From the NCBI GenBank assembly GCA_009746045.1, contig RPFO01000275.1, positions 126,001 through 190,000 on the forward strand: a stretch of 64,000 bases of DNA. The letters are read 5' to 3'. The notes beneath the pieces were generated by a model. That model was not told where the DNA came from and did not search any database. It saw only the letters and a list, made by a program, of their open reading frames with translations. This DNA is from Mesostigma viride (taxonomy: Eukaryota; Streptophyta; Mesostigmatophyceae; Mesostigmatales; Mesostigmataceae). The stretch's first letter is position 1. The number at the start of each line of letters is the position of its first letter. This document shows, piece by piece, positions 1-29,219 of this stretch. A program made the position numbers and the translations under genes.

Positions 1-2143
1 AAACGATGCGTGAGCCCACCCAGCCCTGCGTTGTCACACACGATGGGCTCCCCCAGGAGTGCCACGATTGTAGCCCAGTCCTCCCGCACCGCCTGATGTG
101 GGCTGTCACCCGCCACAACGTTCTCAAACAGATACGCAGGCGGATGGGGCTGACGCGACTGCAACAGTCCCACCACACGCAACAGTTCCCAGAACAGCGC
201 GCTACGCGGATCGGCTAGCCCCCGCCCTTGCCCTGCCTGGCTCAGGCCCTGGCACTCCCAACCCGCAATTACCAAGTCGATGGCATGATGCCTGCGCAAC
301 AACTGCTGCACCTGCACCTCACCGATGGCTCGGATATCTTGAGGACATTCCCCAAACGGGTCACGCCATGCTGATGGCGGAAACTGCGCGGGATACTCTC
401 GCGACAACACGCCACAGTGACTGAAGTACACCTGACGCGCCTTGTGCGATGGCTCTACCGCGATGAGTTTACGGCACACGCCGCCTGCGGCCAAAAAGCC
501 TGCAATGCCCCCTCCGATCCCCGCAAACAGTTCCAACACTACCGCACCCTTGGCAAAATCAGGGGCCTGCGGTAAGATTGCAGCAGAAAAATTACCTTGG
601 GCCTCCGAGACACCCGGTTGCAGCAAAGTGAGGCCATGGCTGGCCATCTGAGGAATGGTGATGACGGCTTCAGTTACCCGCTTGCGCATAGCCAGCTGCC
701 GCGTGGACGTCACAGCATCCAGCGACCACTGCGTGCGCATCTTGGCAATGCTCGCCGTTGGCTGGGGCAGCACCGTCCGATGCTTGTCCCACGCCGATGA
801 GCCCGCCGCCCGTACCTCCACCATGCTGACCTCCACCACGCCCGCAGCCGCGGAAGGGTTGAGGCGTGCAGCCCCGGCTGAAGAACTGAAGCATGAGACC
901 GGCACGCTGGCCCGCTTCAGGCCAGCCCCATCCCAATCAGGGATGTAAGATGCCTCCTCCGCCCTATAGTCCACCTGAACCATGGCGCGAGCAAGGACAT
1001 CCACCCCGAGTAGTGCGGAATATCCACACTTGTTGACCACCAGCGCATACGCGGACACGGTGGTCATGCTAGAGGCGCGCAACGGATTGAAAATCACGTT
1101 GACTTTAACCGCCGTCATAGCGTACGGCTTACTAGCCGGACCCTGCCAACCTGACACAGACACGGGGCTTTCCACTAAGCCACCGTTCTCGTAGGTCAGG
1201 TTCAGCATGGTGGCCAAGTCCGTGCTGATGACTAGCGGCTGAGCACCGCTATCAAGCTTGACTGCGCCAACCAACGGACATGTCACCATGTCGCTCCATA
1301 CATCTCCACAGGCTCCAACTGCTTGGAACGCCATGGACGGCTCACCATTGGGGTATGGAACCACCGTGGGAACCTGGGGGACTGCACTAGTGCGCTGCTG
1401 GCTACTTGTGCTGACCACTCCCGCTTGCACCACGGGCACTGCGGCTTCTACCGGCTGGCGCCCGTAGGTGACGGACTCAGAATTGCGCAAGGTGCGCACA
1501 TCATGCCCATCTGCGAACAACTGGATCTCGGACACAACCGACCCCAGCCACTCAACCCCCTTCTGCCCGAAGGTGTCGACCACCTGCCGTGCTGAAAACA
1601 TGGGTACGTCCACAATGAACGGCATTGGGTACACAGGCGCCAATCGCCTACGCTGCTCCAGCCCAGCAGGGTTCGCATGCTCAAAAGCAGATTGCACCCC
1701 AGCCAGCGGCATGGAAAAGGACGCGGGCAACTGCCCGGCAGGCAACATGGGTGCCTGCTGAAAAGAAAGCGGGCTGCGTGCCTGCTTGCCTTTGGTAGCC
1801 TCCGCAGCGTTGATCTCGACGTCACCCGGCATGGGCGCCCAGAATGGGTCCTCCCGGTACACCGTCTCGAATTGGTTGGGGGGCGCCGTCGCCTCCTCAC
1901 CATGCTTGATGGCAGCCACCTGGGCTTCCATCGAGTCGGTCTTGCCCGCCATCTCGGCGAAGTGGACCGTCTTGATGCCCGCGGCTGGACACTTGTTCAT
2001 CAGGTGCCACTTCGTGTCTGCCCCATGCGGCTTCGTGCAGCGGCTTGGACACTCGCGACTAAGGTGCCCATCCTTGTCGCAAAGGAAGCAGCCCGATTTG
2101 CGCGCATCCGTCCTAGTACCCGTCTGTGAGGACGTGCCCCCCC
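1..2143 (-). CDS. Retroelement pol frame: zinc knuckle, protease, cytosine-C5 DNA methyltransferase (partial)
   Basis: I translated this minus-strand frame codon by codon. It is open from the G-run at 2143 to the left edge, so the C-terminus lies outside the window. In order it contains a CX2CX4HX4C zinc knuckle (CFLCDKDGHLSREC, 2090-2049), a retropepsin-like protease with LDSGA at about 1256-1242 and the second motif ALLGVDVLA at about 1016-990, and a DNA (cytosine-5) methyltransferase. The methyltransferase shows motif I VLELFAGIGGG (536-507), an acidic motif II (LIAVEPS), motif IV around WECQGLSQAG with the catalytic Cys codon at 254-252, the DPRS segment, and motif VI ENV (125-117). The target-recognition domain and any reverse transcriptase would lie to the left. 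By family knowledge the enzyme methylates cytosine in DNA. Its fusion to gag and protease marks it as retroelement-borne, not a host gene. The usual motif IV proline is Glu here. Confidence 0.85.
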
Positions 2144-3835
2144 AGCTCGCGTCGGGGCGGCAGCGTCTTTGTTGCCGCCAGCGGCGTTACCCTGGGTTGC
2201 ATCATGCGATGAGGCGTTGCGAGACCCCCCTTGGTTCCTGCTAGCACCGTGGCCGCCTTGCGGGCGCGCTTGTCTTGTGGCAGACGACTCACCCGACTTG
2301 GCCTTGGTCAGCGCGTCGACCTTGGCCTGCAGCTCGGCCACCACCGTGCTTACCGAGATCCGGCCTTGCGCGTGTCGTCGCATCATGGCCCTGACCTCAA
2401 TGCACAGTGACCGCAATCGCCACGGCTGGCCGTTGGGCGGCGTGGGCAGCTCCATCTCCTTGGAGCCTAGCGCTTGCAGCCATTTCTGACACGCCAGCTT
2501 TTCGGACCAGTCCTCCACTTCGCCGGCGAACTCCATGAGGCGCTCGTAAGATTGCTCCGGGGTTTCACCCTCGGCTATCTTGAAACTGCGCCACTCACGC
2601 TCTGCCTTGATGGTCTCCACCGGGTATTCCTGGCGAAGGAGGCCCCACAGTTCCTCGGCAGGGTCGACACCATACATGATGTTGTCATAGTCGGGCTGGC
2701 CACGCCCGTCGAAGCCGAACCACACGTCCGTGTGACGCGTGTACAGCGAGACCTCTCTCCACTGCTCCACCAGCCTAGCCACTCGCCTCAGCGTAAGGCC
2801 GTGAAAGAAAAAATGCATGTTGTTCATCACAAACTCATGCATTACAGCGCCTTGCGTAGTCATGTATTGCAGATCAATCCATGACTTGTACGCGTTGTAG
2901 GCCTGCGCCAGCGTGGCCAGATTGCCGGTTGTGGAGAACTTCTCGCGCATGTCCACCCGTGGTAGGGTGGGCATCTTCGCGCCTTCCGGTATGAGGCGCA
3001 CCCTTTGCGGGTACTGCACCCCATCGGCATCCTCCGGCGGTCGCTGAGCTGCGCGTCCCTGCGCCAGCGTGCTTGGTCGTGCTGCCTCCCGTACTCGGAA
3101 AGCCAGCGGCGTGGTTATGTCCTCCATGGGCGGAATGCGCCCGATTGGCACACTTGACCACCGTGCAGTCGACCCGCCGGTCAGCGCCCCACCGCCTCGC
3201 CCAAACGGAATTGAGGCCCCGCCTGGCAGCATGCGTCCTGGTGCACCCCTGTGTGGGTCCATCGCGCGCGCCAGCCCTGCCCCGTTCTCCTCGTGCAATC
3301 CGTCTCGCGCTTGATCGAAAGGCAGGCGCCTGGGCGCCAGCGTATACTCGCCCCGTGGCTGACCATCCGCCTCACCAAGCAAGTCGTGTTGGGTTAGCGA
3401 CCCAGCCAAAACCCCCGGTTCCATCGAAGCCCTTCCCGCCGCATTACCTGAGGTTGGCGGCTGGTCCCGCTCCCTCGGCTCCGCGGCAACACCACTGGGG
3501 CCCGGCATCGATGCCTGCCCGTCCCATGGTGTGGACTGCAGATGACGACCCTCTACGGCCACCAATCTGTCGGTCACTTCCCGCATCTGCAGCGCCAATT
3601 GCTGCTGCAACTGTTGCGACTGTTGCTGCATCTGCGCTTGCATCTGCGCGAACAGCGCCACCATACTCAGCGGCGCTTCTTGGTCGCGACTCTCACCCAC
3701 TGCGGGTACGGCGGGAGGAATCCCGCCATTCGACCCCGGAGCGGACGTGTCGGCATCTGCTCTATTTGCATCTGCCATGGCTCGAGTCTGCGCTCGCGTC
3801 AGTGGCATGCACCAGCTGACCGATGGGCAAAACAA
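2000..3835 (-). CDS. Gag-like capsid polyprotein of the methyltransferase retroelement
   Basis: A 611-codon frame. The N-terminus is polar and includes a Gln-rich coiled-coil stretch (about residues 55-95) with repeated MQ and QQQ runs. Residues about 300-480 look like a retrotransposon gag core: many Trp, a helix-rich pattern and a PWRLRSLCIEV-type end. The last roughly 45 residues, after the G-run at 2143, are probably out of the functional frame, because the zinc knuckle lies in the -1 frame from there on. The product would form the virus-like particle. The ATG at 3835 is the first in frame; a second Met about 20 codons in, before ADANRADADT, is equally plausible. The assignment rests on position before knuckle and protease and on composition, not on strong sequence identity. 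Confidence 0.7.
   Translation of the reverse strand: MFCPSVSWCMPLTRAQTRAMADANRADADTSAPGSNGGIPPAVPAVGESRDQEAPLSMVALFAQMQAQMQQQSQQLQQQLALQMREVTDRLVAVEGRHLQSTPWDGQASMPGPSGVAAEPRERDQPPTSGNAAGRASMEPGVLAGSLTQHDLLGEADGQPRGEYTLAPRRLPFDQARDGLHEENGAGLARAMDPHRGAPGRMLPGGASIPFGRGGGALTGGSTARWSSVPIGRIPPMEDITTPLAFRVREAARPSTLAQGRAAQRPPEDADGVQYPQRVRLIPEGAKMPTLPRVDMREKFSTTGNLATLAQAYNAYKSWIDLQYMTTQGAVMHEFVMNNMHFFFHGLTLRRVARLVEQWREVSLYTRHTDVWFGFDGRGQPDYDNIMYGVDPAEELWGLLRQEYPVETIKAEREWRSFKIAEGETPEQSYERLMEFAGEVEDWSEKLACQKWLQALGSKEMELPTPPNGQPWRLRSLCIEVRAMMRRHAQGRISVSTVVAELQAKVDALTKAKSGESSATRQARPQGGHGASRNQGGSRNASSHDATQGNAAGGNKDAAAPTRAGGARPHRRVLGRMRANRAASFATRMGTLVASVQAAARSRMGQTRSGT
2137..2143 (-). promoter_or_regulatory. 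Putative -1 frameshift site (G7) between gag and pol frames
   Basis: On the minus strand the gag frame reads GCT GGG GGG GCA. The zinc-knuckle/protease/methyltransferase frame is reached by slipping back one base in this run. No other route joins the two long frames. A one-base homopolymer error in the assembly would look identical. Confidence 0.5.
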
Positions 3836-5125
3836 GAACCAACAAGCCTAGGTTTCGCTGAGAAGAAGCAACAACCAAAGGCTTTATAACAGGTGTCAAG
3901 GATAACGACTCGACTAGCCTGCCAGAAAAAGACAAGAGCCAGCAAATTCTGGCTAGTTCTATTTTCTTAAAATCTGTCTCAAGACACTTCCTTTACAAAC
4001 TGTCAGCCAGGCCGTTCCCTGTACTGCTGATGGTTGCTAAACACTAAAGCCAACGTCTTGGCTTCGAACAGAAGGAAGCAGACTACCGGGTAGTCTCTTC
4101 GAGTAAAGAAAGGAGGGCTCTCAGCCGAGGACAAGGAACTGTCCCTCGTGCCTGATAACCACCTTATTGCCTCCCCTGCTATAGAATAATGCTTTCAAAA
4201 CACATACTTTGCACAGTCTGATGATGAAGCCGCACATGCGGAGTTTATTGAGAAAGTTAATACAATTACAACACGTTGATAGTCTCAATATCGATGCACT
4301 CCATGCTCACGAGCCCGCAGTTAGGCAGCGCTCCATGACATGCTACCGGCCTTGCTCCCAAGGAAAGGGAGAAACACGAAGGCCACTAACGAGAGACTCG
4401 AAGAGACTACACGCTGCGTGAGAGTCCTCTTCGACTATGAACCAAACCATTCGTCATGCCACACGCATGACACACGCCACACTTGTCAGTCCAGCCAGGA
4501 ATGCCAAAACTATCTTGCTGCCTGAACCATGCGAATAGAAACCGCATTCCAGTTGCCGTCCTGGCTTTCTACCACACATGCCAACAAAAGCAGGAAGGCA
4601 TCCCGACAAATCTAAATTGCTACCCTGTTGCCGATCTCATCTCCTAGAGGCTCCGGCATTTCTGTCCCTGGGAATGTCCGACATTGAGTCACGTCCAGCA
4701 AGGTCGAAGCATAATATCCTTCAGACAATCTGCACGCTCACACCTTGCGTGTGAGTGGCCCAGCAAACATTGCGTCTAATCGTTCCTTTCTAGAAGAAAT
4801 CCCTTTTTAGGGCTGCCAGCGATTTCGCATTCATTCCAGCGATCTGGCTCCGCACCGCAAATTGTCCTTTTCCATTTTCTGTCCAGTCCTCATATAAACG
4901 TTGACCCGCTATTCTACACCACAAAGACACCTGGCCTGTCAATAGCCTCGGCGCTGTTGAAGTCCAGCAGTCCAGCTTCAGCTCCAGCTGTCCACTAACA
5001 CGCGTATGATCCTCTCGACGCTGCACACTTGTGCTGCCGTCCGCTCAAGTCAGTGCTGCGCGCCCAGCTGTGCCTGGCCCGGCGCGCGTGCACGTACACT
5101 TTCGTCCGCTCTTATGCTGCAAGTG
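3836..5125. other. Upstream region of the methyltransferase element (leader or LTR candidate)
   Basis: No convincing gene. On the minus strand it lies directly upstream of gag, so it should hold the leader, primer-binding site and 5' LTR, but only one copy is in the window and the ends cannot be fixed. A TATA-like stretch reads CGTTTATATG on the minus strand (4900-4891). Confidence 0.3.
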
Positions 5126-6160
5126 CTAGTGTCCCCCCCCGGTCACTAGCCTTTGTCGAAAATGCGTAGAAGACAAATTCCTTGCGCACGTCACCGGTCT
5201 TGTGCATAGTGGGCGCCCGGATGACATAGCGCGCGTCCGTGACACTTGTCCATCATCTTCGTCCAAATCACGGAGAGGCCTAGGCCCCCCATGTCCTCTA
5301 CTAGCTGTCCTTCCAGTATACCGGCTTCTTCCCCGCCGTCTGCCGGAGCTGGAGGTAGGTCGGGCCATAGCTCCCGTCGCCGTTGTTGCTGGGCCAGGGT
5401 CAAGTCGTCGTCCAGCGTGTAGGAGAGCCCCCCAAGCCGCTTGCGACACTTGCTCAAGGAACTCCGGCTTATCCGCCATAGTGTCAAAGGTGAGGAGAAG
5501 CGGGGGCGGTCCAGCCTCAGTATCCCGCGAGCGGGGAAGGCGGATCACCTTCGGCTTGACCTTACCGTCGAGAGCCATGGGGACAAGTGTGGCCGTGTTC
5601 TCAAACGCCTTGGCGAGGGACTCGGAGTTCGATCATGCACCTTCAAGCAGGGCGAAGTGCTTGACGATGACGTTGCGGCTGCGCTTGTCGAGCTTGACCT
5701 CCGTGAGCGTCTGCTGCTTGATTGAGCTGGGCGGCGAATGGCGATATGGCACAGGTGGTGGTGGTGCAGTGTGGTTTGAAGCAGCATGGCGGCCCAGGTC
5801 TGGGTGGGCCGGAGGGGCATTGCCGGCTGGGCCAGCCGGGGCTGGCCTGGCGGCAATGTCCTTCACCGCCTGGGCAGAGAGGCCCGCGGTATTTTGCAGG
5901 CACTCGATGGCGATGGCGTTGTCCTTGAGGCGCTGATCGATGTCGAGGAGCTGGGCAGTGATGGCGTCGGTGGTGGCTTTGGAGGTGGAGGCGATCGAGG
6001 AGGGTGGCGGTGGCGGTGGCGGTGGTGGAGAGAAGGGGGAGCAGCCTCGGCAGCCAGTGTGCCGCCGAGGGCTGCCACATCTGCAGCGAGGGGAGTCACG
6101 TGCTGGTTGAGGGCCTCCTTGAGGATTGACCGAATGGCGGCCTCGGTCAAGGTGGTGGTG
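5126..6160 (-). pseudogene. Degenerate LINE-like ORF1 fragment (nucleic-acid-binding protein)
   Basis: Several overlapping minus-strand frames read as one protein broken by frameshifts. The order is a segment starting MTEAAIRSILKEALNQH, a Pro-rich stretch, a helical segment (TTDAITAQLLDIDQRLKDN), a core around KRSRNVIVKHFAL, a piece with KPKVIRLPRSRD and LLLTFDTMADKPEFLEQV, then LDDDLTLAQQQRRREL and a Gly/Lys-rich end. This succession resembles the RRM and C-terminal parts of LINE-1-type ORF1 proteins. No reverse transcriptase follows to the left, where the methyltransferase element lies instead. The assignment is by eye; it could also be a decayed host gene. Confidence 0.4.
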
Positions 6161-9590: not shown

Positions 9591-11174
9591 TCACACATAA
9601 AGACGCAGCAGGGGAATGCAGGGGTGAGGAGGCGGGGGAGAACCGATAAGGAGCACCAGGAATGGCTGCGTGACGGGTGGTGCATGCTCCCTGCTGTGTG
9701 CGTGCCTCACCTCCTTCTCTTCGGTCGGTGGCCGCGGGTACAGCCCCCTGGTCACCGTCTCCTTAAACGCGCGCAGCTTGTCTGGGTCGTTCATGTTGGC
9801 GGTGAACTGCCGCCCCTCGATCGTGGGCTGCCAGCGCGCCTCGCGGTCGAACCCATCCCACTTGAACCCCGCGGCGTCCGCCGCAAACTGCACAAACCCG
9901 GTGGTGGAGAACCAGCGCTCGTAATAGAGCGCATCGGTGCTGGCCGCGTCCGCCACGATGCCGTCGTCGTCATGGTCACTGTAACCATACAGGGTCAGTT
10001 TGCCGCACAGGTTTAGCGCCACGTGCAGCGCGCGCATCGCTGAGGAAATCCGGCCACCGCCACCTGGCACCCTGTGGGCGGTCGAGTTGGCGAGGGCGCG
10101 CACCATCTCAGGGTAAGACAGCAGGTTGAGGCCACCCGCGCTGGGCATGAACGCCTCGTCTAAAGACAGTGATAGCTCGCTCCCCTCACGGAAGTTTGCG
10201 GCGGACCCGCTGGTCAGCCGCAGCGTCGTGCGTGCACCCACGCGCGCGTAGTTGCGATCACTCGTCGGCGCGTCGTCCACGCGCAGCACCACGTCGTGTG
10301 CGTCGATCTCCGCACCCAGGTCGCCGCACGCCTCGAGCCACTGGGAGCCGGCCACCAGTGCGCAGCGGCCGCCCAGCAGCGGCGCCACCGGGTCGTGGTC
10401 GGGCAGGTCCAGCGTGCGTGCCCAGTAGCGCAGCAGCTGGCGCTTGCAGCTGAGCACGTCGATGTTCTCGCACAGATCGTCACCGTACGTCGCCAGGTCG
10501 GTGTTCAGTGAGTCCATGCTCACCGCCCAGCGCGGCAGGGAGAAGGGGAGCAGGTTGCAGGGCAGAACCGGCGCAATCGGCTGGTCGCACGTGTCGCTGG
10601 CAGACCACGCGGCAGCGCAGAAACACCTGCCCATGGAGGTGCACTGGCCTCGTTTATTGCAACCAGACGGGCAGGCCTCGGCAGGGCCGGGCTTGTCCAT
10701 GGGACTACTCTCCTGGGAAACGCCATGGAGGGACCACACCGGCCCCGTCACTACAGGTTGGCTGTCCTCCGTTTCGATACCGGCGGCACCCACGTCCGCA
10801 GCGACGTGGCTCACCAGCTCGACCGTCTCCTGCTGGGAATAGCTCACCGAAACGTCTTCCAACCCCGTTTCCTGCTCCGACGAGTCGATGACTTGATCAC
10901 TTTCAGCAAATGAATGTATTTTAGACGGTCGGATTCGATGTCGCGGTGGGTCTGGCGACTTCGAAACGGCTTCACGCTGAGCTTGAAGCATAATAAGCCC
11001 GATTTTAGAAATGCCCGCGTCAGCGTCATCACTGTCGTCTGAACTGTGCATCATCCGCCTTCCAATGCGCTGTCCCATTGCCGTCTCCGAAGCTAACAGT
11101 CCCGTCGTCGGTGCTATCCATGATGGCGCTAATGCTAGGAGCAGGCAACACGCATGGAAGCTAAAATGCGTCAT
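9591..11174 (-). CDS. EGF-like module plus GT29 sialyltransferase-like glycosyltransferase
   Basis: A 527-codon frame. The N-terminus is a short hydrophobic signal or type II anchor (CCLLLALAPSWIA, residues about 9-21), expected for a Golgi enzyme. Residues about 167-200 form an EGF-like module (CPSGC, RGQC, GRCFC). The GT29 sialylmotif L starts near residue 271 (CALVAGSQWL, then EIDAHDVVLRVDDAP and VGARTTLRL) and sialylmotif S near residue 370 (PGGGGRISSAMRAL to LTLYGYS, about 395). A YYERW segment stands near motif III. GT29 enzymes transfer sialic acid or a related sugar from a CMP-activated donor; the substrate in an alga is unknown. The frame passes a good donor (GAAGGAG|GTGAGG, exon end 9711), so the last roughly 40 residues may be intronic read-through and a further exon could lie to the left. 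Promoter and start are unverified; 11174 is the first ATG. Confidence 0.75.
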   Translation of the reverse strand: MTHFSFHACCLLLALAPSWIAPTTGLLASETAMGQRIGRRMMHSSDDSDDADAGISKIGLIMLQAQREAVSKSPDPPRHRIRPSKIHSFAESDQVIDSSEQETGLEDVSVSYSQQETVELVSHVAADVGAAGIETEDSQPVVTGPVWSLHGVSQESSPMDKPGPAEACPSGCNKRGQCTSMGRCFCAAAWSASDTCDQPIAPVLPCNLLPFSLPRWAVSMDSLNTDLATYGDDLCENIDVLSCKRQLLRYWARTLDLPDHDPVAPLLGGRCALVAGSQWLEACGDLGAEIDAHDVVLRVDDAPTSDRNYARVGARTTLRLTSGSAANFREGSELSLSLDEAFMPSAGGLNLLSYPEMVRALANSTAHRVPGGGGRISSAMRALHVALNLCGKLTLYGYSDHDDDGIVADAASTDALYYERWFSTTGFVQFAADAAGFKWDGFDREARWQPTIEGRQFTANMNDPDKLRAFKETVTRGLYPRPPTEEKEVRHAHSREHAPPVTQPFLVLLIGSPPPPHPCIPLLRLYV

Positions 11175-11644
11175 CTGATATGGCGCCCTCTTTCACAACA
11201 TCCAAACAAAGCGCTTCTGCGATGTCATGTTGCTTAACTTCGGTGAACGCAGCACGTACCTAATTTGTTGTGTTTGCGGGGACATGGAGTGGGCACGCGA
11301 CAGCCATGTCTCCAAGTCATATAACGTGAAGTATGGCAACGCAGTGACATGCTGGCCAGACACGTGGTGTTTGTACGGGGCTCGTCAGGTTCGGGGGACA
11401 GCGCGGGACGGCCGGGCCGCTTGCCCGTAAAAAGTGCTTTCATCCCCAATTCCCCATCTCTCATCTCTGCTGCCCTGCTGCCCACCATGATTGTGCGGCG
11501 TTGTTGATTGTGAGTTGCTGTTGTTGCCCACGCCGCTTGTTTGTTCACTTTGGTGAGAGTTGACGCCCACGTGCGGCGTGGGAATCAACAACAACAACTA
11601 CTACATCCCGAGTAGTTTCCAAGTAACGTGCGTTCTAATCTAAC
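11175..11644. other. Spacer between the GT29 gene and the LINE
   Basis: No gene seen. It should contain the promoter of the minus-strand glycosyltransferase gene and the 5' truncation point of the LINE on the plus strand. Confidence 0.4.
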
Positions 11645-14576: not shown

Positions 14577-15148
14577 TGTTACGTCGCGTAACAATTCGTT
14601 GTAGTTACGGACGTAAATTAGGTCTTTGCCTCGGTTGTCCCTAGGTTTACGTTTAGGCTCCTACCGGGACATTATTGTCCTCGTAACAGTACTGTGGTAC
14701 ATTGGGTGCCGTTGGGCGCCGCGCCGCGTACTTTACTAGTGGTCCTGATCCTGTGGTAGAATGTAGTGGACCAGCGTGCATCAGTAGATGTAGTGGACCA
14801 GCGTGCATCTGTAGGCGAGGGCCATGTCGGCCCGAGCGTGTTGGACCGTTGGTGACCATTTATGCGCGTTCTACCCCTTGTGTGTGCACTCGGCGTGTGT
14901 TAAATGAATTAACACATTTAGGCTTGAGTCACGGCAGTGTAGTTGTGTTTCCTTCCTCTATTCCTGGAGTAAACGGGTTTTGGTAAATGGTTGTATGGCG
15001 TATTATAGTAACACATACGTTAATGCATTGAGATCAGCTCCGTCACGTTCGTCTTTCGCCAGAGGTTTGAGTAGAGGAGGCCTGACCAGTTTAGGTAGTA
15101 TCAGGCCCATTAGAGGTAGAGGTGGAGGTAGATATCCGCGGCGTAACA
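14577..15148 (+). repeat. 5' LTR of element B
   Basis: TGTTACG...CGTAACA termini and an exact second copy at 29220-29791. The small frames inside it are copied with it and are not genes. Confidence 0.95.
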
Positions 15149-15149
15149 A

Positions 15150-15161
15150 TGGTTCCGGAGG
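15150..15161 (+). other. Candidate primer-binding site of element B
   Basis: TGGTTCCGGAGG starts one base after the LTR, as expected for a tRNA primer ending in CCA. Element A has a closely similar sequence in the same position. The tRNA is not identified. Confidence 0.5.
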
Positions 15162-15647
15162 AACTTCAGTAGGTAGAGAACGAGACGACTATCCCTTGCC
15201 ACATACACCTTTTCAAGACCCCTTCCGCGTCCAGGAACACGAAGTCGACACTTCCTTGATAGGTAATGGGCGGGTCGCCTTCAAGCTAGGAGAGTAGTGC
15301 TGCCCGTTTCGGGACACGCTCTACCTAGATGCTAGACCTGCTCGCAGCGGATAAACCCTTTCGTAGTTAGCCTGTCCTTCGCCTTGTTTTCCTGCTTACG
15401 GTTGTTTCCTGTCTTAGATAGGGGAGTATTCCTGTTCGGAGACGATTAGCGTCGCAGTACCTACACCTTTTTCCTTGTGCTGCTGCTTTATTAGACGGCC
15501 GCACCCGCAGAGATCCGGTCGCTGACTTAGGACGAGAGCTGGACAATTCCGCCCTCATTCTTCTTTCGGTGATCCAGATCGTCCAGATAAGTCGCCTACC
15601 CCTACTCCTTCTAGCGTGACGTCACAAGACCCACCAGGTGAGTTATC

Positions 15648-16040
15648 ATGAGTCAACGTCGTGTTTTTACTGCGCCTTCCCATTCATCTAGTGATAATAG
15701 CTTAGCTAAATATTACGTAGTTATTACCCCTCAATGGTCAGCCATTTTCCTCTCTTGGTCAGATGCTAGGAAGATAGTGCAAAATCGTACGTATAATGTA
15801 ATTAGGTATAAGAAATTTGTTACCTTCGAGGAAGCTCAACAATTCCTTATAGACCATAGTGTATCAGATCTAGGCCTACACGTACGTTCTACTCCTCATG
15901 GTCGCCCTCCTGTAGAAGCTCTAGATTTTGCTACCCCTCCTTCGTCTCCCCCTAAGAGGGCTGCATCCTCATCTAGCTTAGATACTCCTCTCACCTTAGA
16001 ATTCGGTTCCCTATCCATTACTGTTGTTAAAAAGGATTGA
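15648..16040 (+). CDS. Small ORF with RNase H1 hybrid-binding / caulimovirus viroplasmin-like domain (element B)
   Basis: A 130-residue protein. Residues about 22-67 match the pattern of the RNase H1 N-terminal hybrid-binding domain, also called the caulimovirus viroplasmin domain: an aromatic pair YYVV, then IFLSWSDARKIVQN, then RYKKFVTFEEAQQFL. That fold binds RNA/DNA hybrids or double-stranded RNA. The C-terminal half is polar with Pro/Ser runs (TPPSSPPKRAASSSS). It stands between the 5' LTR and gag, 124 bp before the gag start, as its own ORF with an ATG. Element A has the same domain in the same place. A role in reverse transcription or in binding element RNA is an inference. The domain call is by eye. 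Confidence 0.7.
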   Translation: MSQRRVFTAPSHSSSDNSLAKYYVVITPQWSAIFLSWSDARKIVQNRTYNVIRYKKFVTFEEAQQFLIDHSVSDLGLHVRSTPHGRPPVEALDFATPPSSPPKRAASSSSLDTPLTLEFGSLSITVVKKD

Positions 16041-16691
16041 TTAAAATTGTTTCCTTCTTTTAAGCCATTAAAAGCTTTTTCTTTTCTTTCCTTGCCTTAA
16101 ATTAGACCTTGTCCTTTATCCTTGTTGCTTTCAGTTAGAAATCTGATCATTTATTTAAATAAAAATGGATCCAGTGGGTGGTAACATGTCGCCTATACCT
16201 ACCAATACTCCTACTATGAGTAATAATAATAATAATACTAACAACCATAACAACAATCGTGGTAACCGACGGGACTCACTTGAAACGGTGCACCATCTCA
16301 CTCCTCAAGGTAATCTTCGTACCTCACCTCCTTCTCCTATTGCTGGTGGTCGCCGTCGTCCCTCACTTACCCCTCCTACCTATGAACAACGTCAACGTAT
16401 GCAGGTCAGATTTAGTGATGACCCTTCCCTTACCCTGAACCAGGCCCCTGCCCCTCGTGCGACCTTGGCTCAACCCTCCAGCAGGTCCTCACTAACTAAC
16501 AATGTTTCTAGGCCTCCTTCCCACCCTGTGCCTTCCATGCCTGCTCTTAACACGGGTCGTGCCTCTGCCCCTGTCGGTCCTTCTGGGCGCCCTAGTGCAG
16601 TTCCCTTTTACCCACCTGCTTCCTGGTCCTACCCTGAGACGGCCTATGAGGCAGCCCAGGTCCCTACCCGTGTGGCTGATTTAGAAGTTAA

Positions 16692-19328
16692 GGGGAGGTG
16701 GCACCCCAAAAACCTTAAAATTTGACCCATGCTAATATCACTTGAAATTCATTTGCACAATGCTGAGTTATGATTGGGGGCACTAAATAACATCTCTAGT
16801 GAGTTGTCCATGCACTTGTTGGGGGTACTACCCCCATATATACGCCAATAATGCGCTATAAATAGCAAAAGACGCTAATTAGGGCTGGGTATGCCCCAGC
16901 CAATTCACTTATTTGTTGGCTACCAAAAATCAAGGTCATATAGTTCCCTGAGTTTGTAGCTTGCTGAGCTATTTACATCATGGAAATGGCAAAACCTTGA
17001 ACAGTTATTAATTTTCCCGCAAAACAGGTCATTTTTTACCGGACATTGGGAATAAACATGTCATAAACACTTCCGATAAGGCCACAAAATCAACAAAAAT
17101 TCCGGCTAACAGGGGGACAGCAGTGTTCCAAGTCCCAGGTCATTCCGACAAGTCTAGCTCAAGTTATTGCGTCAGACGTGTTTTCAGAAAAATGCCCGCT
17201 AAAACAGAAAATGTCACTATATCAGCCCTTGTAAGCATCCTGCACAAGGCAGGCAGGGCAAAACCAATCCCCCTTGGGCTTCTTAGTCAACGGGGGGTCA
17301 GCGCAGCACCCATGCAGTCCTCCCTTGCACCCGAATGTGCTGCACAGCAGGAAAGGACACCGTCAATTTCATCGGGGGACGCACATGCAAGGCAAGGAAT
17401 ATCATCACATCATTCTCATCATCACTACTACCTTCCCCATCGTCCCCTGCCCCTCCCTTTGCATCACGTCGTGGCAGCCACCCTTAAAACAGGTCATTCC
17501 GACAAGTCTAGCTCAAGTAATAAGGTTATGCGTGCTAAAACCTGAACATAAGCTTAAGGGGGGTTTCTTTGTATACATGGCCACTTAGGCATGATGTTTT
17601 CCATCCAAAAAGCCAGAAAGCATGCCCCACTCGATCACAAAACATAAGCAAACGGCTAGGCACCACATCTGCCCTCACCTGCCCTCGGCATGGCCAACCT
17701 TGCCAGCGCAAGCATAGCAACACGATCGCTAGGCATACATGCCAAGAGAGCATACACTATACTCTACCCAAGGTTACCTTGTAAACATAATGCCAAGAAC
17801 TCAGCAAATCTATGATCAAAAGCACATATAATTAACTCTAGCACACTGATGACGACACATGCTCAAGGTTGGGGGTCACTGTGGCACGCACTGATGGGTT
17901 TCCTAGACGACCACTCACCACCTGACAAGGCGCTAAGGACCACTCAGAAAGCAAGTAAACACAATCACACTTTACATGCCATCAACATGGATCAAATCCA
18001 TGCTGAATATGTTATGAAGTACAAAGGGGTGGCCACGCACCTCATACTCCTTCACCGTCCCTCGAGCATGGCCAGACTTATAAGTACGTGAATAGCAATT
18101 ATGATGATGGCACTAACATGCATTACCAGCATTCTCTATGTTTCTCCCAGGTTAGAGTGTAAGGGTTATGCCAACCAAGCTTACCAACACAGCAACAACT
18201 CCTTAACTGCCCTACCCGACATGGGCAACAAACTGGAACTATGGAGGGCAAGGAACCAAGGAGATCATGGCATACAAAGCTTGCATGCAGTCAACCATGT
18301 CAACCATGGTTGGCTCAGCACATTGCTGTCTTGTCACATCATCATAACAAGGAAAGCTCAAGTAAACCAATGATGGCAGCTATCTACATGCAGTCACACA
18401 AATGCAATATCTCCAACATGATCGTCGATAAAAAAACTTCCTTCCCTGCACGATAAAGTGCAAAGAAACCAGTGGCGGCCGTTCAGCTTCTGACCGCTGT
18501 GATGCCGCTGCGAGGAAAGGGTGCGTCACTATCACACAACAAGAAGCGTCCATACGCACAACATCCTTGCCAGAACACGTGCTATGAAATCCCTTACGCC
18601 TTCCCTAGGATCTATCGGTTGAGACTGAAGCGGATTTGATCAAGACATCAACGAAAACAAGCTAAAGCTGCCAGGTATTCGTCAACACGACGGCGAGCAA
18701 CGGAGAGTTAACTGGCGGAAACTGACCAAAACGAACGCAAAAAACTTCGAACGATGAGCTCTTCGAAGAAAGAACTGATAGTAGATAACAGTCGCCACAA
18801 ATCTATACCTTGCCCTCGTAGATCCCTCGCCCAGGCGCGCAACAACTGCCGTTCTTCCATGGAAGGTTCCGACATGCACTGCGCAGGCCTCAAGAAATAC
18901 TTACCGAGAATGGCCGAAAATGTAGCAAAAAGCACCCGTTCGGTTTAGAATTCGATGCTACCGATATGAATGCATCCTTCACGGTCAAAAAGACCCCCAA
19001 AACAGAGAATTTACTGCCGCAATCACGAATTCTATTTTATTCCGCGCGACCAAAAAATGCAGATTACCCCCCATGCCGACGGCAGTAAAAGAAAGCAGCG
19101 GTATTGTAAACCAGCCACTTGCCGCCGCAACCCAACATCATTAAATCATCGTCTTCAACATCCAAGCATTTTTTTTGCATTTCTCTAGCCCTACATTGCT
19201 AGTTTCGCCTAAACGCAGTCGCCATGGCCACTTCCGCAAGTGGTGCGCGCACGGAGCACCCACTTTTCACGGTACGGCCGGTGCCGCGAATTTTTTCGCG
19301 CGGAAAATATTCGGCGCGCCACGTCCCC
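16692..19328. mobile_element. Non-autonomous DNA transposon inserted at TTAA (piggyBac-like)
   Basis: 2637 bp flanked by TTAA (16688-16691 and 19329-19332) with imperfect terminal inverted repeats GGGGAGGTGGCAC and GGGGACGTGGCGC (11 of 13 match). Removing it restores the gag frame. TTAA targeting is typical of piggyBac elements. No transposase is visible; the longest frames are about 140 codons with no recognised motif. A segment near 17138-17176 (AGGTCATTCCGACAAGTCTA and onward) is repeated near 17490-17522. Confidence 0.7.
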
Positions 19329-20612
19329 TTAACAGTGATTTCAGCACCATGCCCCTAGATGATAGAAATTATGATCATTTTGCCTATTCCTCTCTTCGTG
19401 AGCAATATACTGTCCCCTTCTCTTATGGGCACCAGCCTGAAACGGTGGCCCCTTCTAGACCCCTACCCAAGACTTTTCCTCTTCCTTCCTTCTATCCCGC
19501 TTATGTAGCAGTGGAAGATAGTGGCCCTATGGGAAAAACTGACTCTTCTAATCCCCCTAAGCCCCCTGCTCTTCCCCTCTTTGCTAACCTTCCCAAGCTG
19601 GATGTCAAGTCTACCCCTCAACAGTTTTTCACCTTTATTATGTTGCTTACCCAGAACACGGAGTCGTGGCAGAATCATAATAGATGGCGTCTTTCTGATG
19701 CTGTATTAGTTCCTCACTATCTTACAACCTGTATTACTCCTGAGCTTGCTAACCTCATTCAGTGTGAGTCTTTGGCCTCTCATGCCTACCCTAACTCTGT
19801 AGCAGAATTGTTTAAGCGTTTAGAGAACCATTTAGTCCCTCCTGATTCAGATTGGCAGGATAGATTAGCCTTTGGTACCTTGCAGCAGGGTACTAAATCA
19901 TTTAAGGAGTATATGAAAGACCGGAGATCGCGTTTTCCGCGTTTTCCGCGGCCTGGCACTGAACGCAAAGGTTTTCACCTTTGCGGAGTGTCTGATCAGA
20001 ATATGAAAGAGTTTGATGCTCAGATGGTACGGATTAGGGATTTGTCGGGTGCAGAAGTACGTGCTCGCTTCCTCCAAGGCCTCAGTAGACCCTTATTACG
20101 TGAAGTCAAGCGCCAGTTCTCTGCCTACCGTTTTACTGATCTGCCCCTCAAGCATGTGCGCCAGCATCTCTTGCGTGTAGCAGATTTCTTCACCACCCCT
20201 TCTCTTCCTACCCGTTCCCGTATTAATAATATTATCCTTACCCCTGAGGAGGAGAACTCCTATGTAGAAGAATTAGATATCTGTGTTACTGACCTTTCAG
20301 CCCTTGATGTCTCTCATATCACATGCTATCATTGTAAGGAAGTAGGTCATCTTAAACGTGAGTGCCCCAAGTTCCTTTCGGGTGCTCCCCCTCATCCCGA
20401 CGCTCGCCCTCCTCGTACCCCTCAGCGTGCTCCTATTCGTCCTACTTCAGGACGCATTCCCTCAGCTACCCCTAGTAGGCTGAATGCTGTGCAGGCAGGG
20501 CCCCCAGGGTTCCCCTATGATAATCAGGCTCCCGCACCCTCTTCGCTCCCTCGTGACCCTCCAGCAGTGGCTTTTTCGCCAGGGTCTTCTTCGGGGTTAG
20601 TTCCTATGGATT

Positions 20613-20620
20613 TGGGGGGG
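20613..20620 (+). promoter_or_regulatory. Putative -1 frameshift site (G8) at the gag/pol overlap of element B
   Basis: The gag frame reads TTG GGG GGG GAG, which contains the heptamer G GGG GGG in the slippery-site phase. Slipping back one base gives GGA GGG GGA ACA GTA, the frame that stays open past the gag stop and, after removal of the 20672-22364 insertion, into protease. Confidence 0.5.
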
Positions 20621-20671
20621 GAGGGGGAACAGTAGGCCTGTCAGCCGGGGGTAACCTGGACAGGTCCTTAG

Positions 20672-22364
20672 CCCCTAAATGGTCTTGCTGCCGATTTTCC
20701 GCCAAAAAGTGACTTACAGCCGATTTGTCGGCACCTACTCGGGGGACCAGTTTGCGAGAATACCATTGGGAATTAGGAAACGTTTAGCTGAGAAGAATGA
20801 AAGTTTATAAGTTTCTCCAGAACATGATACTAGGGTTTGCTATATTTTGACAAAGTTATAGAGGTGTTCTGGCCGGTCAAAGTACAAGGGGTCAGGGTAC
20901 TTTTTCACGTACAACGTGCATTCCGGAAAACGACGACCTGGCCATGGCGGCTTGCGCCCACGCATGGCATTTACGTTTGAGTTCGAATTTTCTGGCCAAA
21001 CTTAGGATATTGATTTTATACGTCCTAAAGATCATACAGGCCAATTTTTGGTTCGCGGGAATGCCATTTGATAGGTGTCGGCAGCGTTCTTGCTGGAAAA
21101 AACTGCGATCAGGCCGGACGATAGAAACGTTGACAGCAATACCTTTCCGGCGTATTTTAAAGGACATATTGGTTTCTTTGTACTTTTTATGATGATTTGT
21201 AGTCGTAGACGTGCAAGGGTGGCCAGAAATCGCCGAATCCAGCGACCATGCTGCACAACTTTGGTGTGCCGAAATGCGCCATTTTGCGGCCACCGCCTGG
21301 GCCAAGGTAACGCCATCCATGCCTGGTAAAGCTTCAGCATCGTTTTCCTATCGATGTTTGACGTTTATATATACGTTCTAGCTTGTGTAGCACATTCTTT
21401 TTGCATTATTCATGCTCTTTCTTGACCCTGGCCTGGCCCCTTTCTAAAACACCCTTCTTAGATGCTTCCCTCAGTCAGTTGACCTGCCACAGGGTGATGG
21501 TGATAAGTTTTAGAGGCTGTATGGGTTTGAATATCTCCATATATGTTTGTTATACATTTTCCACACACATATTGCATGAGTGTGAGGCAGTTGGCTGGTC
21601 TCTGTGGCATCATCAAGCATGTAACCGGTGAGTAGAAGCTTCCCATTGTCAGCATGTGCCACCAGGTGTGCTGGCCATCACCTGGCAAGCTATAGCAGCT
21701 TAGGCCTAGTTTATCCTTGCTAGGGCAAACTGAAATAGGCTTACAATCACTAGTTTGTTGGTGGCTGCCTCCTAGAATGCATGCCTTGCGTAGGGTATCC
21801 GTACCACGTTACCTACGTGCATGGACAAGGTGGCACCTGCACATAGGTGCCATGTAAGGGCAGTGTGATGATGCAGTTATGTTTCCCCATCATTGTGGAA
21901 GGGAAATGTATTGTGTGGCATGGTTGGGGGCCATATTAGTAGGTAGGTAGTATGCCCACTCCTACCCCCTTGGTTGCTTTTTACCAACGGTACTCCTATG
22001 GGCTGTACTGGGTGTAACTGCTGGTATACCCACCCAAATGATGACCCCAATGGCTCAAACTGTTCAGCAACTAATTGTTTATCATCCCTGAAGTGGTAGG
22101 TGCCTAGCTCTTACAACATAATTCAAAATGCACATTCTACCAAAAATGAAAACGCTCGTCTTGACCCCCCTGACTTTGACGGCAGTTATACATGGCCTAC
22201 GATGAATATATGTGAGGTTGTGATATATCACGGCTTAGGGCAACTCATGGACATGCTTGCCCCCCAAGGACAGCCATTGGATATTGCTAGGTTGTACAGG
22301 GGCTGGTTTACAAAATAGGTGAGTTACTGCCGATTTATCGGCAGCATTTCCGCCCATTTAGGGG
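20672..22364. mobile_element. Terminal-inverted-repeat element flanked by TTAG in the pol leader of element B
   Basis: 1693 bp with perfect 11-bp inverted ends CCCCTAAATGG, flanked by TTAG (20668-20671 and 22365-22368). Subterminal palindromes (GCCGATTTGTCGGC on the left, TGCCGATTTATCGGCA on the right) occur near each end. Removing it keeps the pol frame open (TCC TTA GAT AGT ACC). No transposase ORF. The superfamily is uncertain; TTAG could be a variant of a TTAA-type target. Confidence 0.7.
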
Positions 22365-22445
22365 TTAGATAGTACCCCAGATAAAAATTTTTGCCTGCCT
22401 GTTTTTATAACCTCTATAGGAGCTGAATCTTCCCTACCACTACGT

Positions 22446-24314
22446 GTGCGTCCTCTTATGTTCTTGAATGGTGGTTTAACCGTCCCTCACACTGTTGTAG
22501 ACCCCTTCTTGCATGCTGATGAACTCTTGAATGTCTCTGTGTTGGTAGATAGCGGTGCGGCTAGCTCCTTTGTGAGCGAGGCCCTAGTTAGGCGTTTAGG
22601 ACTAGTCCCTACCCCTCACACCAAACCCGTCACTGTTCATTATGCTGATGGTCGCACCAGTCATTCCCCGGGTACGGTGTCCCTTCCCATGGTTATACAA
22701 GGACGTACTGTCAACCTGACGGCCACTATAGGCCCTATCACTACCGCTGATGTATTACTAGGATTAGATTGGCACCAGGATAGTAAGATTACTATTAATT
22801 ATGATACCATGGTCATCTGGTTTCCAGATAGCTCTTACTGGGTACCGGAACGTCATTATAGATTGGAAAATTTATCCTTGGTAGATATTACTCCTCCTAC
22901 ACCTGTTGATCCTCCTGTAAGACCTATACCTGAAGTATTAATGTCCAATGATGAGTTGCGTTCTGAACTAAAGGATTATGGATATTTATTATGTATGTTC
23001 CTTCAGTTAGAAGTACAGGAGATACCTATCACTAATAATAGTGTGGATATCTATATAAACACAGTGGATACAATAGGAGTGGGATTTACTGAAAATGAAA
23101 TAGTAAGATACATGGCTGTGATAGATTCCTCAAAGGTTTTTGAAGAAAAGACTCCTTCTTATCCTCCTCCTCGTTCTGTTTTACACCGTGTAGTTATCAA
23201 GGACGGTGCAGTTCCTACGCACTCTCCGATGTATAGAATGGGCCCTACCGAACTAAAACAGATTTTAGTGTCGCTACTAGAAGCAGGATTGATAGAGCCT
23301 AGTAACTCTCCCTACTCAGCTGGTGTCCTGTTAGTTCCTAAGCCAAATGGCAAGTTTCGCCTAGTTACTGATTATAGGAAGTTGAATGATATTACTGTGA
23401 AGTCTAAATACCCTCTACCTCGTATTGATGATATATTTAATAAGGTTAAAGGTTCCACTTGTTTCACAGTACTGGATTGTGCGGATGGTTTTTGGCAGTT
23501 GCGGATAGCTCCTGAGGATTGCCATAAAACCGCCTTTGCTACCCCTTTTGGTCATTACCAGTTTAGAGTAGCGGCTATGGGACTCTGTAACTCGCCTGCC
23601 TCTTTTCAAATGTTAATGAATGAAGTGCTTAGACCTGTTATGGGAAATTCTCACCTTCCTCAGGTGTCCTCTGATTTAAAGGATCCTTCCTTCTCCTCTG
23701 TTTCTTTATCTGAGCATGACCGTTCTTGTGCTCAAGCGTACTTAGATGATATTCTTATTTACTCTCCTGATTTTGAAACGCACCTACGTGATTTAAAGAA
23801 AGTATTAGAAATAATGGCTGAAAATTCTTTGTGGGCGCGCCGTGCTAAAGTTCGTTCGGGTAGGAGTGTCCCATTTTTAGGGCACGTTCTGTCAGATGCC
23901 GGGGTCGCTACCGACCCGGATAAAACTAAGTCAATTCAGGAATGGCCTACCCCTACCGACGTTAAAGGTGTACGTAGTTTTCTAGGAATTGCTTCTTACT
24001 ATAGGCGTTTTATCCCGCGTTTCGCAACTATAGCAGCCCCTATTAATCATTTATTAAAGAAGGATATCCCCTTTGTTTGGAGTAGTGAATGTCAGTCGGC
24101 TTTTCAGTGCCTAAAATCCCTACTCCTTTCCCCTCCTGTACTCATCCTACCGGATACTACTAAACCTTTTGTTGTGGCTACAGATGCTAGTAAGGTAGCT
24201 ATAGGTGGCGTCCTTCTCCAGGATCAGGGTCAGGGCTTACAGCCAATTGAGTATATCTCTAGGACAATGCTCCTGCGGAGCGTAACTATCCCGTACACCA
24301 GCAGGAACTCTTAG
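22446..24314 (+). CDS. Protease and reverse transcriptase of element B pol
   Basis: A 622-codon frame that is part of a longer pol; upstream codons are open through the 22368 junction, so 22446 is not a true start. Protease: NVSVLVDSGAASSF with the active-site DSGA at about residues 35-38, then VLLGLDWH as the second motif. The RT begins near residue 259 (MYRMGPTELKQIL), with SAGVLLVPKPNGKFRLVTDY, DCADGFWQLRIAP, FQFR-type GHYQFRVAAMGL and the catalytic YLDD near residue 432. RNase H starts with VVATDASKVAIGG near residue 576. The last roughly 14 residues are out of frame: a one-base loss near 24270 replaces the PAERNYPVHQQELLAVVY sequence seen intact in element A. Confidence 0.93.
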   Translation: MRPLMFLNGGLTVPHTVVDPFLHADELLNVSVLVDSGAASSFVSEALVRRLGLVPTPHTKPVTVHYADGRTSHSPGTVSLPMVIQGRTVNLTATIGPITTADVLLGLDWHQDSKITINYDTMVIWFPDSSYWVPERHYRLENLSLVDITPPTPVDPPVRPIPEVLMSNDELRSELKDYGYLLCMFLQLEVQEIPITNNSVDIYINTVDTIGVGFTENEIVRYMAVIDSSKVFEEKTPSYPPPRSVLHRVVIKDGAVPTHSPMYRMGPTELKQILVSLLEAGLIEPSNSPYSAGVLLVPKPNGKFRLVTDYRKLNDITVKSKYPLPRIDDIFNKVKGSTCFTVLDCADGFWQLRIAPEDCHKTAFATPFGHYQFRVAAMGLCNSPASFQMLMNEVLRPVMGNSHLPQVSSDLKDPSFSSVSLSEHDRSCAQAYLDDILIYSPDFETHLRDLKKVLEIMAENSLWARRAKVRSGRSVPFLGHVLSDAGVATDPDKTKSIQEWPTPTDVKGVRSFLGIASYYRRFIPRFATIAAPINHLLKKDIPFVWSSECQSAFQCLKSLLLSPPVLILPDTTKPFVVATDASKVAIGGVLLQDQGQGLQPIEYISRTMLLRSVTIPYTSRNS

Positions 24315-24316
24315 CG

Positions 24317-24817
24317 GTGGTGTATTGTTGCCACGCGTGGCAGCACTTTCTTAAAGGTGCTCAATTTGATGTCTGCCTGAATGAACCCTGTGAGCTAGAT
24401 CCTTATAGATTAGTTATCCAAACGGATCACCGTCCCCTTACCCATCTTCTCTCCCAACCCAACCTTACCCCTCGGCAAGCGCGCTGGATGGAATTTTTAG
24501 CACAGTTTTCCCCTTTCAAACTTCAGTATGTCAAGGGTGTAGATAACATAGTACCAGATGCACTCTCTCGTCGTGCAGACTACTCCTTTTTCGAGGACCT
24601 TGATGTTCTCAATACTACTCTAGTTCCTACTACTATGGGTGTAACCCCTTATGGTGAACTACCTGATGATGAATCCTATGCCTACCTCTTTCATACAGCT
24701 GTTCGCATGCCTGATCTTCTTTCTCACGTAGGACTCTCTCTCCCGTGTGAGGCCCTTCCCGTGGCCTCGGTGGGGGGGAGGGGAAAAATAAAATTTCTGT
24801 ACCGCTTAGCCATATAG
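24317..24817 (+). CDS. RNase H of element B pol (after a frameshift)
   Basis: Continues the RNase H domain in the next frame. The true frame joins at about 24270 and reads through ELLAVVYCCHAW. It shows TDHRPLTHLL with the third acidic residue, TPRQARWMEFLAQF and VPDALSRRADY, the usual end of Ty3/Gypsy RNase H. The frame closes at 24817 after a second break near the G-run and A-run at 24773-24790. The linker frame that follows (ISVPLSHIATRSG onward) is continuous with integrase. Confidence 0.85.
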   Translation: MVYCCHAWQHFLKGAQFDVCLNEPCELDPYRLVIQTDHRPLTHLLSQPNLTPRQARWMEFLAQFSPFKLQYVKGVDNIVPDALSRRADYSFFEDLDVLNTTLVPTTMGVTPYGELPDDESYAYLFHTAVRMPDLLSHVGLSLPCEALPVASVGGRGKIKFLYRLAI

Positions 24818-26454: not shown

Positions 26455-26530
26455 TTGTAGGCTTTCTCCTCTCTTATGTTATGTCTGCTGTCGACGGGTG
26501 GTTGGTTGTCCCCTCCCCTCCGCAGCCGTC

Positions 26531-28849: not shown

Positions 28850-29209
28850 ATAGAGGGCCTTAGGCCCGACCTGAGGGTGTTGTCCCTCCGGTATATAGAG
28901 TCGCCCTCATGTTCTGGCCAGTTGGCTGGTCGTTCTTGGTCCTTGGTACTGATTTGTTTACTCTGTGTGTCCTGCCCAGTGCCGTTCCCCCCCGGCAAGG
29001 ACTTTGTTCCAGGCAGTTAGGGGAACCTACCACCAGGCTTGGTGCTGGCTAACCCTACACCTCCCGGCGTGGTGGTGGAGACCGAGTTAATACGTTGGTG
29101 TCTTGTATCTTGGGCGGTCTGCCGACTGTGTTAGTGTGTGCTGGGTGCATTAGGTTTCCTACCCCTTGTTTTCCTCCCTGTGCGTAGGGAGAGGGCTCCC
29201 TACCTTTGT
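28850..29209 (+). other. 3' untranslated region of element B
   Basis: No gene seen between the third ORF and the polypurine tract. Confidence 0.6.
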
Positions 29210-29219
29210 GGGGGGGAGG
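29210..29219 (+). other. Polypurine tract of element B
   Basis: GGGGGGGAGG directly precedes the 3' LTR, the expected plus-strand priming site. Confidence 0.8.

Follow-up and report, generated by a model that had tools for sequence, protein, structure and literature searches.

A Ty3/Gypsy-type retrotransposon of Mesostigma viride with a probable DNMT3-related methyltransferase in Pol, a PHD finger after the integrase and a proposed ligated-cDNA life cycle

We describe a retrotransposon that lies across the left edge of a 64,000-nucleotide stretch of the Mesostigma viride genome, here called the window (contig RPFO01000275.1, in our numbering C225:126001-190000, from an assembly of 440 Mb in 2243 contigs). 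Taken as a whole, the observations are best explained, with a probability of roughly 0.65, by a recently active Ty3/Gypsy-type element that encodes a DNMT3-related methyltransferase within Pol and, beyond the integrase, a PHD finger, and that would reach new sites through a ligated cDNA. This explanation draws on the domain order of a long and intact Pol frame, the number of copies, the arrangement of two split repeats with a predicted self-primer, and the scars left at the ends of individual insertions.

Pol and Gag of the element

The initial annotation, made from the sequence of the window, had pointed to a minus-strand frame of more than 700 codons with a zinc knuckle, a protease motif and a C5 methyltransferase, and this description holds. 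The Pol frame is open for 728 codons from a stop codon to the window edge, and the part of the methyltransferase inside the window matches PF00145 at E 1e-11. It was also right in taking the frame for that of a retroelement whose remaining enzymes should be sought to the left. There the frame runs on into the flank L015, to 2074 codons in all, and encodes without a stop the rest of the C5 methyltransferase, reverse transcriptase (RT), RNase H, an integrase and a C-terminal PHD finger. The same 2074-codon frame is likewise open in L025, L026 and L027, all from other contigs, and in L025 Pfam recognizes the methyltransferase, RT, two RNase H models, H2C2, the rve integrase and the C-terminal PHD finger (E 8.5e-9); no chromodomain was found in the element by Pfam. 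The knuckle in this frame reads CFLCDKDGHLSREC, and the protease is marked by an LDSGA motif. The order of protease, RT, RNase H and integrase is that of Ty3/Gypsy elements, with the methyltransferase set between protease and RT; the assignment to a Ty3/Gypsy-type element with methyltransferase and PHD finger appears close to certain.

At least 119 scored places contain the methyltransferase domain, all at 100% identity (rounded) and without an internal stop, a number that is a lower bound from a selected set (the best-scoring 119 of 517 candidates) and may include duplicated pieces of the assembly. The full 2074-codon frame surrounds it in 39 of these 119 places (counted by hand, twice), and damaged copies of the element also occur in the genome. 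At least 13 separate insertions are evident because their target duplications differ. Beyond this family, called A here, a family B has a Pol frame of 1642 codons that is 67% identical to that of A (1078 of 1613 aligned Pol positions) and has the same Pol architecture; its knuckle, found by Pfam, lies in the Gag frame. By eye, a protease-like motif was also seen in the family-B Gag frame (LDGGA versus LDSGA; L018:1138-4380), and the copies of this family look recently mobile. A third lineage, L023, has a methyltransferase that is 75% identical. Nine weak PF00145 rows were considered as further lineages and rejected, since all turned out to be copies of the family-B type, several with damage. 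With the domain in at least 119 places and the 2074-codon frame open on other contigs, chance and local misassembly are excluded, the latter having been named at the outset as something that could undo the whole reading. That a host gene or an assembly artefact has been joined to a retroelement is refuted by the many contigs, the separate target duplications and the two diverged families with one architecture, and can for practical purposes be dismissed.

The initial annotation had further placed the methyltransferase in one fusion behind gag, knuckle and protease. This is correct for knuckle, protease and methyltransferase, which share a frame, but not for Gag, whose core of 615 codons from stop to stop lies in a different frame, with Pol at -1 to it. 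The -1 overlap was found in all five family-A copies traced across the region (the window, L025, L026, L027 and L029) and in five of the six family-B copies having the 1642-codon frame. A run of G stands at the overlap; it has 7 bases in the window and in the four fetched family-A copies that showed the pattern, 9 in six family-B copies and 10 in L022 and L028. Because the same -1 relation occurs in two families, we infer that Pol is made by programmed -1 frameshifting. Two results speak against this: in the family-B copy L019:1290-4343 a small gap shifts Gag into the Pol frame, with one stop codon between them, and the fold downstream of the presumed shift site is no better than that of shuffled sequences, so that a stimulating structure is unsupported. 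Farther along Pol, between methyltransferase and RT, family A, family B and L023 share a conserved hydrophobic stretch (ILMTALLTS or close to it; L025:4175-4243 on the minus strand and the same region of L018 and L023). In family B no other 19-residue stretch of Pol is more hydrophobic, but in family A it ranks below the top four.

Split repeats and self-priming

Read along the element strand, the window copy has the structure A(1141)-gag-pol-B(143)-A(1137)-B(143), and the family-B copy C2100 shows the same A-coding-B-A-B order with repeat sequences that differ from those of family A. The outer ends are thus A and B, and the identical long repeats that Ty3/Gypsy LTR retrotransposons have at both ends are absent; among copies mapped end to end, C133 alone has BA on either side. 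Within a single insertion, the two A copies are separated by 0-2 substitutions (four pairs measured; the window copy has 4 gap bases in addition), and the two BA repeats of C133 by none; therefore these insertions are recent.

Directly after the 5' copy of A lies a 14-nt site whose exact reverse complement is found inside A, 293 bases (family A) or 232 bases (family B) before the end of the repeat. A 14-mer with such a partner in repeat A is unique in both families, 1 among 9578 body 14-mers in A and 1 among 9793 in B, and the layout is very probably that of a self-primer. Before B, again in both families, stands the polypurine tract GCGAGGGGGGG. Given a self-primer after A and a polypurine tract before B, standard reverse transcription should yield a cDNA of the form BA-coding-BA, and C133 has exactly this form, its ends at the predicted cDNA ends and no flanking duplication seen. 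The A|B join of the genomic copies corresponds in both families to the two predicted cDNA ends put together exactly. Likewise in both families, the TG and CA of the outer ends meet within the B|A junction as CA-GC-TG.

Insertion scars and the proposed life cycle

Both the TG and the CA terminus could be mapped in 15 copies (a first 9 and then 6 more). Excluded from this set are 14 of 20 and 4 of 10 sampled copies with one or no terminus in the fetched stretches, the tandem C111, C133, C1690:7724121 (which has a truncated 3' B) and the remaining fetched loci, for which no ends were traced. With termini at the internal B|A junction, 13 of the 15 are flanked by an exact 4-bp target duplication; ten of these have the order A-coding-B-A-B (the window, C2100, C1613, C158, C1:8922235, C47, two on C1391, C1557 and C1579:6252871) and three the order A-coding-B (C224:5360085, C1579:1851736 and C224:1970885). 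TG...CA termini with a duplication of this size agree with Ty3/Gypsy LTR retrotransposons, in which 4-6 bp are usual. Ten copies were picked because their 2074-codon frame is open; eight of them have the A|B join, and all have the B|A junction. The window itself provides a control, a chromovirus (a Ty3/Gypsy element with a chromodomain) at 14577-29791, which has ordinary repeats of 572 bp that are 100% identical and TG...CA ends, and which is bordered by TCCTC on either side.

On the simplest interpretation, the integrase opens a ligated or circular cDNA at B|A, and we consider this probable because the TG and CA termini at B|A come with 4-bp duplications and the A|B join consists of joined cDNA ends. 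An A|B join might also arise with no ligated cDNA, through template switching in reverse transcription or through unequal recombination between tandem copies. The tandem arrangement of C111, which shares B-A, would suit such an origin, as would the fact that DIRS elements, which use a tyrosine recombinase, attain an identical order of repeats (PMC5890265); against it stand ten A-coding-B-A-B copies each having its own 4-bp duplication, and an A|B whose two sides are, in both families, precisely the predicted ends of the cDNA, and we hold it to be unlikely. What weighs against the opening of ligated cDNA by the integrase is, first, that C998 and C1646, both A-coding-B-A-B, have both ends present and no duplication and, second, that the A-coding-B copies could stem from later recombination between the two B repeats. 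These copies could equally come from a linear cDNA cut at both internal junctions or from a one-repeat circle; with several origins possible, they therefore do not decide between routes.

The life cycle that we propose on the ligated-cDNA reading would run as follows. Transcription would start inside A, and the 5' bases of the RNA would fold back on the 14-nt site after A and prime its own reverse transcription as in Tf1/sushi elements. The plus strand would begin at the polypurine tract before B, giving a linear BA-coding-BA cDNA whose ends would then be ligated, in a circle or a concatemer, to form the A|B join of the genomic copies. The DDE integrase would cut at the internal B|A junction (CA-GC-TG) and leave TG...CA termini, and insertion with a 4-bp duplication would result in A-coding-B-A-B or A-coding-B. 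The methyltransferase, made within Pol, would in its likeliest role methylate the cDNA, or a circle formed from it, ahead of insertion, and the PHD finger could steer the integrase to a chromatin mark. Tentatively, one may go further and suppose that the DDE integrase normally inserts ligated or circular cDNA at the palindrome-like CA-GC-TG and that this is coupled to a methyltransferase marking the circle in cis. If true, the element would replicate by a route of its own, intermediate between those of long terminal repeat (LTR) and DIRS elements and perhaps common to other methyltransferase-bearing Gypsy elements such as KnitGypsy. Retroviral 2-LTR circles have a literature of their own.

Nature and role of the methyltransferase

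Four copies of the methyltransferase were aligned, one from family A, L023 and two from family B. All four keep ELFAG, GWECQG, FENV, THRxRA[YF]WTN and GQAMS; the catalytic Cys, ENV and HRxRxxW.N are invariant across the three lineages, in each of which the domain is open. Between A and B the proportion of nonsynonymous differences (pN) is 0.225 versus 0.743 for synonymous ones (pS), and with synonymous sites near saturation only a general constraint can be claimed. A profile of the four sequences, searched against PDB, places DNMT3A first (E 4e-7), followed by DRM (1.5e-6) and M.HhaI (7e-6), with DNMT1 not listed up to E 1; the window part alone, as query, returns DRM, HhaI, HaeIII and then DNMT3B at E 0.08. 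Motif VIII, HRxRxxW.N, resembles that of DNMT3A, and the other enzymes read in this genome (L007, L031 and L032) have QxRxR. Foldseek with a structure model puts DNMT3A/B on top, a weak match at a template modelling score of about 0.3. With moderate confidence, then, the enzyme looks DNMT3-related.

Several points count against that kinship. The catalytic motif IV of DNMT3 enzymes is PCN/PCQ, and a Glu before the catalytic Cys is unusual in a C5 methyltransferase; here the motif reads ECQ in four copies of three lineages. The structure model is poor, with a mean predicted local distance difference test score of 50.8. The phage profile PHROG 116 matches motifs I-VI at 66-76 bits, and a second, PHROG 363, matches at 50-66 bits and in L023 spans the whole domain (residues 6-333). 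Both phage profiles match well, which leaves the DNMT3 kinship no more than probable.

The same matches, together with TIGR00675 on the first part of the domain (E 1e-12, below the cut-off of that model), are what would be expected had the enzyme been captured from a phage or bacterial methyltransferase and not from a eukaryotic DNMT3. We judge this origin improbable. Motif VIII follows DNMT3A and not the QxRxR form, DNMT3A/B lead both the PDB profile search and the Foldseek search with the weak model, and short-peptide patterns, which can miss distant relatives, confirmed no relative in IMG/VR (none with query P0001; 30 pattern stretches and 0 confirmed with alignment A1) or in GTDB contigs (48 pattern stretches, 0 confirmed). 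A degenerate GWECQGL pattern led to 6 loci in IMG/VR, none of them a methyltransferase. By tblastn, the 199-amino-acid part in the window met 19 plasmid and 239 phage records, none spanning 80% of the query, and the L023 domain met 2 phage records.

A different question is whether the domain still methylates cytosine, or has taken on an altered or purely binding role, in RNA binding, DNA flipping or as a chaperone. ECQ in all four aligned copies would fit such a change, as would an odd C-terminal half (Pfam covers motifs I-VI only) and the weak structure model. Set against this are the invariant Cys, ENV and HRxRxxW.N, the constraint on the domain and the coverage of the whole domain by PHROG 363 in L023, and a loss of methyltransferase activity seems to us rather unlikely.

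A host DNMT1 is present at L032 (C1402; best PDB E 5.5e-200), and the genome therefore probably methylates its DNA. The enzyme of the element may serve self-methylation or the evasion of host silencing. That it acts on its own cDNA we put a little short of an even chance, and for a role of the PHD finger in targeting integration the odds seem about equal. The CpG content shows no clear methylation scar: the observed/expected ratio is 0.85 in A and 0.78 in B, versus 0.93 for the window and 0.62 for another Gypsy element (four other stretches range from 0.75 to 1.02), so that the values lie only slightly below the window and above the other Gypsy element. The elements have a modest surplus of TG/CA dinucleotides, at 1.33 and 1.44 versus 1.16 in the window.

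The genome also holds a second, unrelated class of C5 methyltransferases with an FPCQ motif (L007-L014, L030, L033 and L034; frames of about 310-390 residues in those read). These occur in many near-identical copies, often on contigs of 20-45 kb and beside long open reading frames without a convincing Pfam match, and our guess is that they may belong to a multicopy viral or polinton-like element. An SPCQ-type methyltransferase was seen at L031 (C1562).

Features of the window

The coordinates of the element within the window are collected in Table 1. Elsewhere in the window there are another Gypsy element, its frames in overlapping fragments (33409-37273, minus strand), a frame matching glycosyltransferase family 29 (sialyltransferase) at E 5.9e-12 (9594-11192, minus strand), and a satellite whose 25-bp unit is repeated about 200 times and in which both strands keep frames of 1471-1849 codons open (43200-48212). 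At 59709-61462 lies an array of the 8-bp unit TGCGTGTG, repeated about 220 times, and at 63142-63818 one with 15 units of 45 bp.

Table 1. Positions of the methyltransferase-bearing element in the window
Feature	Position	Strand	Remarks
C5 cytosine methyltransferase, part inside the window, with motifs I, IV and VI	1..566	-	first part of the domain, whose end as used is at C225:125556, 445 bases beyond the left window edge
Pol frame, part in the window	3..2186	-	2074 codons in total; ends in L015 at 5865
Motif IV, GWECQG	246..263	-	catalytic Cys kept, Glu for the usual Pro; identical in four aligned copies of three lineages
Aspartic protease of retroviral type, LDSGA	978..1259	-	Pfam matches below cut-off
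Gag frame	2003..3847	-	615 codons; no Pfam match
CCHC zinc knuckle, CX2CX4HX4C	2046..2090	-	
G7 run in the overlap of Gag (0) and Pol (-1)	2137..2143	-	probable -1 frameshift site
Proposed primer-binding site	4090..4103	-	14 nt, directly after A
5' copy of repeat A	4104..5244	-	1141 bases; starts with TG at 5244
Exact reverse complement of the primer site, inside A	4397..4410	-	proposed self-primer
4-bp target-site duplication, right copy	5245..5248	.	CTTG on the plus strand; left copy in L015

Comparison with known elements

Retrotransposons that bear a methyltransferase are not new as a kind. Methylase-encoding Ty3/Gypsy and DIRS elements are reported from green algae and charophytes (PMC6338049), and DNMT3 members are described as embedded in LTR and DIRS elements (PMC12344493). 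What the present element adds to them is another genome, with copies that are intact and near-identical, so that self-methylation can be tested directly with nanopore or bisulfite reads, as well as a PHD finger and a catalytic motif altered in a conserved way. From the insertion scars comes a concrete and checkable replication model for split-repeat Gypsy elements, whose repeat order is given for KnitGypsy, in the text available, without a mechanism (PMC5890265). In a search that left most subscription journals outside, we found neither the PHD finger nor the insertion logic in print, and no published account that combines PHD finger, integrase, Gypsy retrotransposon and alga; the papers returned for split direct repeats with Gypsy and integrase concern, by their titles, tyrosine-recombinase elements, reviews and curation.

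The closest known system is KnitGypsy-Dnmt3 of the charophyte Klebsormidium nitens, for which, like the Mesostigma element, Gypsy domains, a Dnmt3-type methyltransferase inside the Pol frame and a DIRS-type A-coding-B-A-B repeat structure are described (PMC5890265). The suggestion in the initial annotation of a possibly independent capture is not established by our data, and common ancestry is a live alternative. A single capture, in which an old Gypsy lineage acquired a Dnmt3-type enzyme, followed by shared descent or horizontal transfer, competes with independent capture and not with the mechanism proposed here. The features that the two elements share by description incline us slightly towards it; on the other side, the term 'PHD' is absent from the main text of the KnitGypsy-Dnmt3 paper (PMC5890265). 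The Mesostigma element further differs in the ECQ of motif IV, and for it a self-primer, a polypurine tract and 4-bp duplications have been worked out, though all of these differences, being read from published descriptions, may be descriptive only. The KnitGypsy enzyme gave no methylation in yeast, a result that its authors termed inconclusive, and the SymbioDIRS enzymes are reported to give de novo CG methylation there (PMC5890265).

SymbioDIRS-Dnmt3 and SymbioLINE-Dnmt of Symbiodinium are also methyltransferase-bearing retrotransposons (PMC5890265), but they are tyrosine-recombinase or LINE elements, whereas that of Mesostigma has a Gypsy RT and RNase H and a DDE integrase. Self-priming in plant elements has been surveyed (PMC6317226), and the RNA of Tf1 primes itself with its first 11 bases (PMC7175516); the likeness to Tf1/sushi lies in a site just after the left repeat that would pair with the RNA at its presumed 5' end, and the difference in the predicted use of 14 bases in place of 11, in the split repeats, and in the methyltransferase and PHD finger. 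With the Tudor- and chromodomain Gypsy elements of Ectocarpus, of which the Tudor case is called the first by its authors, our element has in common a chromatin reader domain at the C-terminus (PMC12477816); its reader is a PHD finger, and its methyltransferase lies inside Pol. The split direct repeats in the order A-coding-B-A-B, finally, recall DIRS and PAT-like elements (PMC5890265), but a DDE integrase in place of a tyrosine recombinase, TG...CA ends and 4-bp target duplications set the Mesostigma element apart from DIRS.

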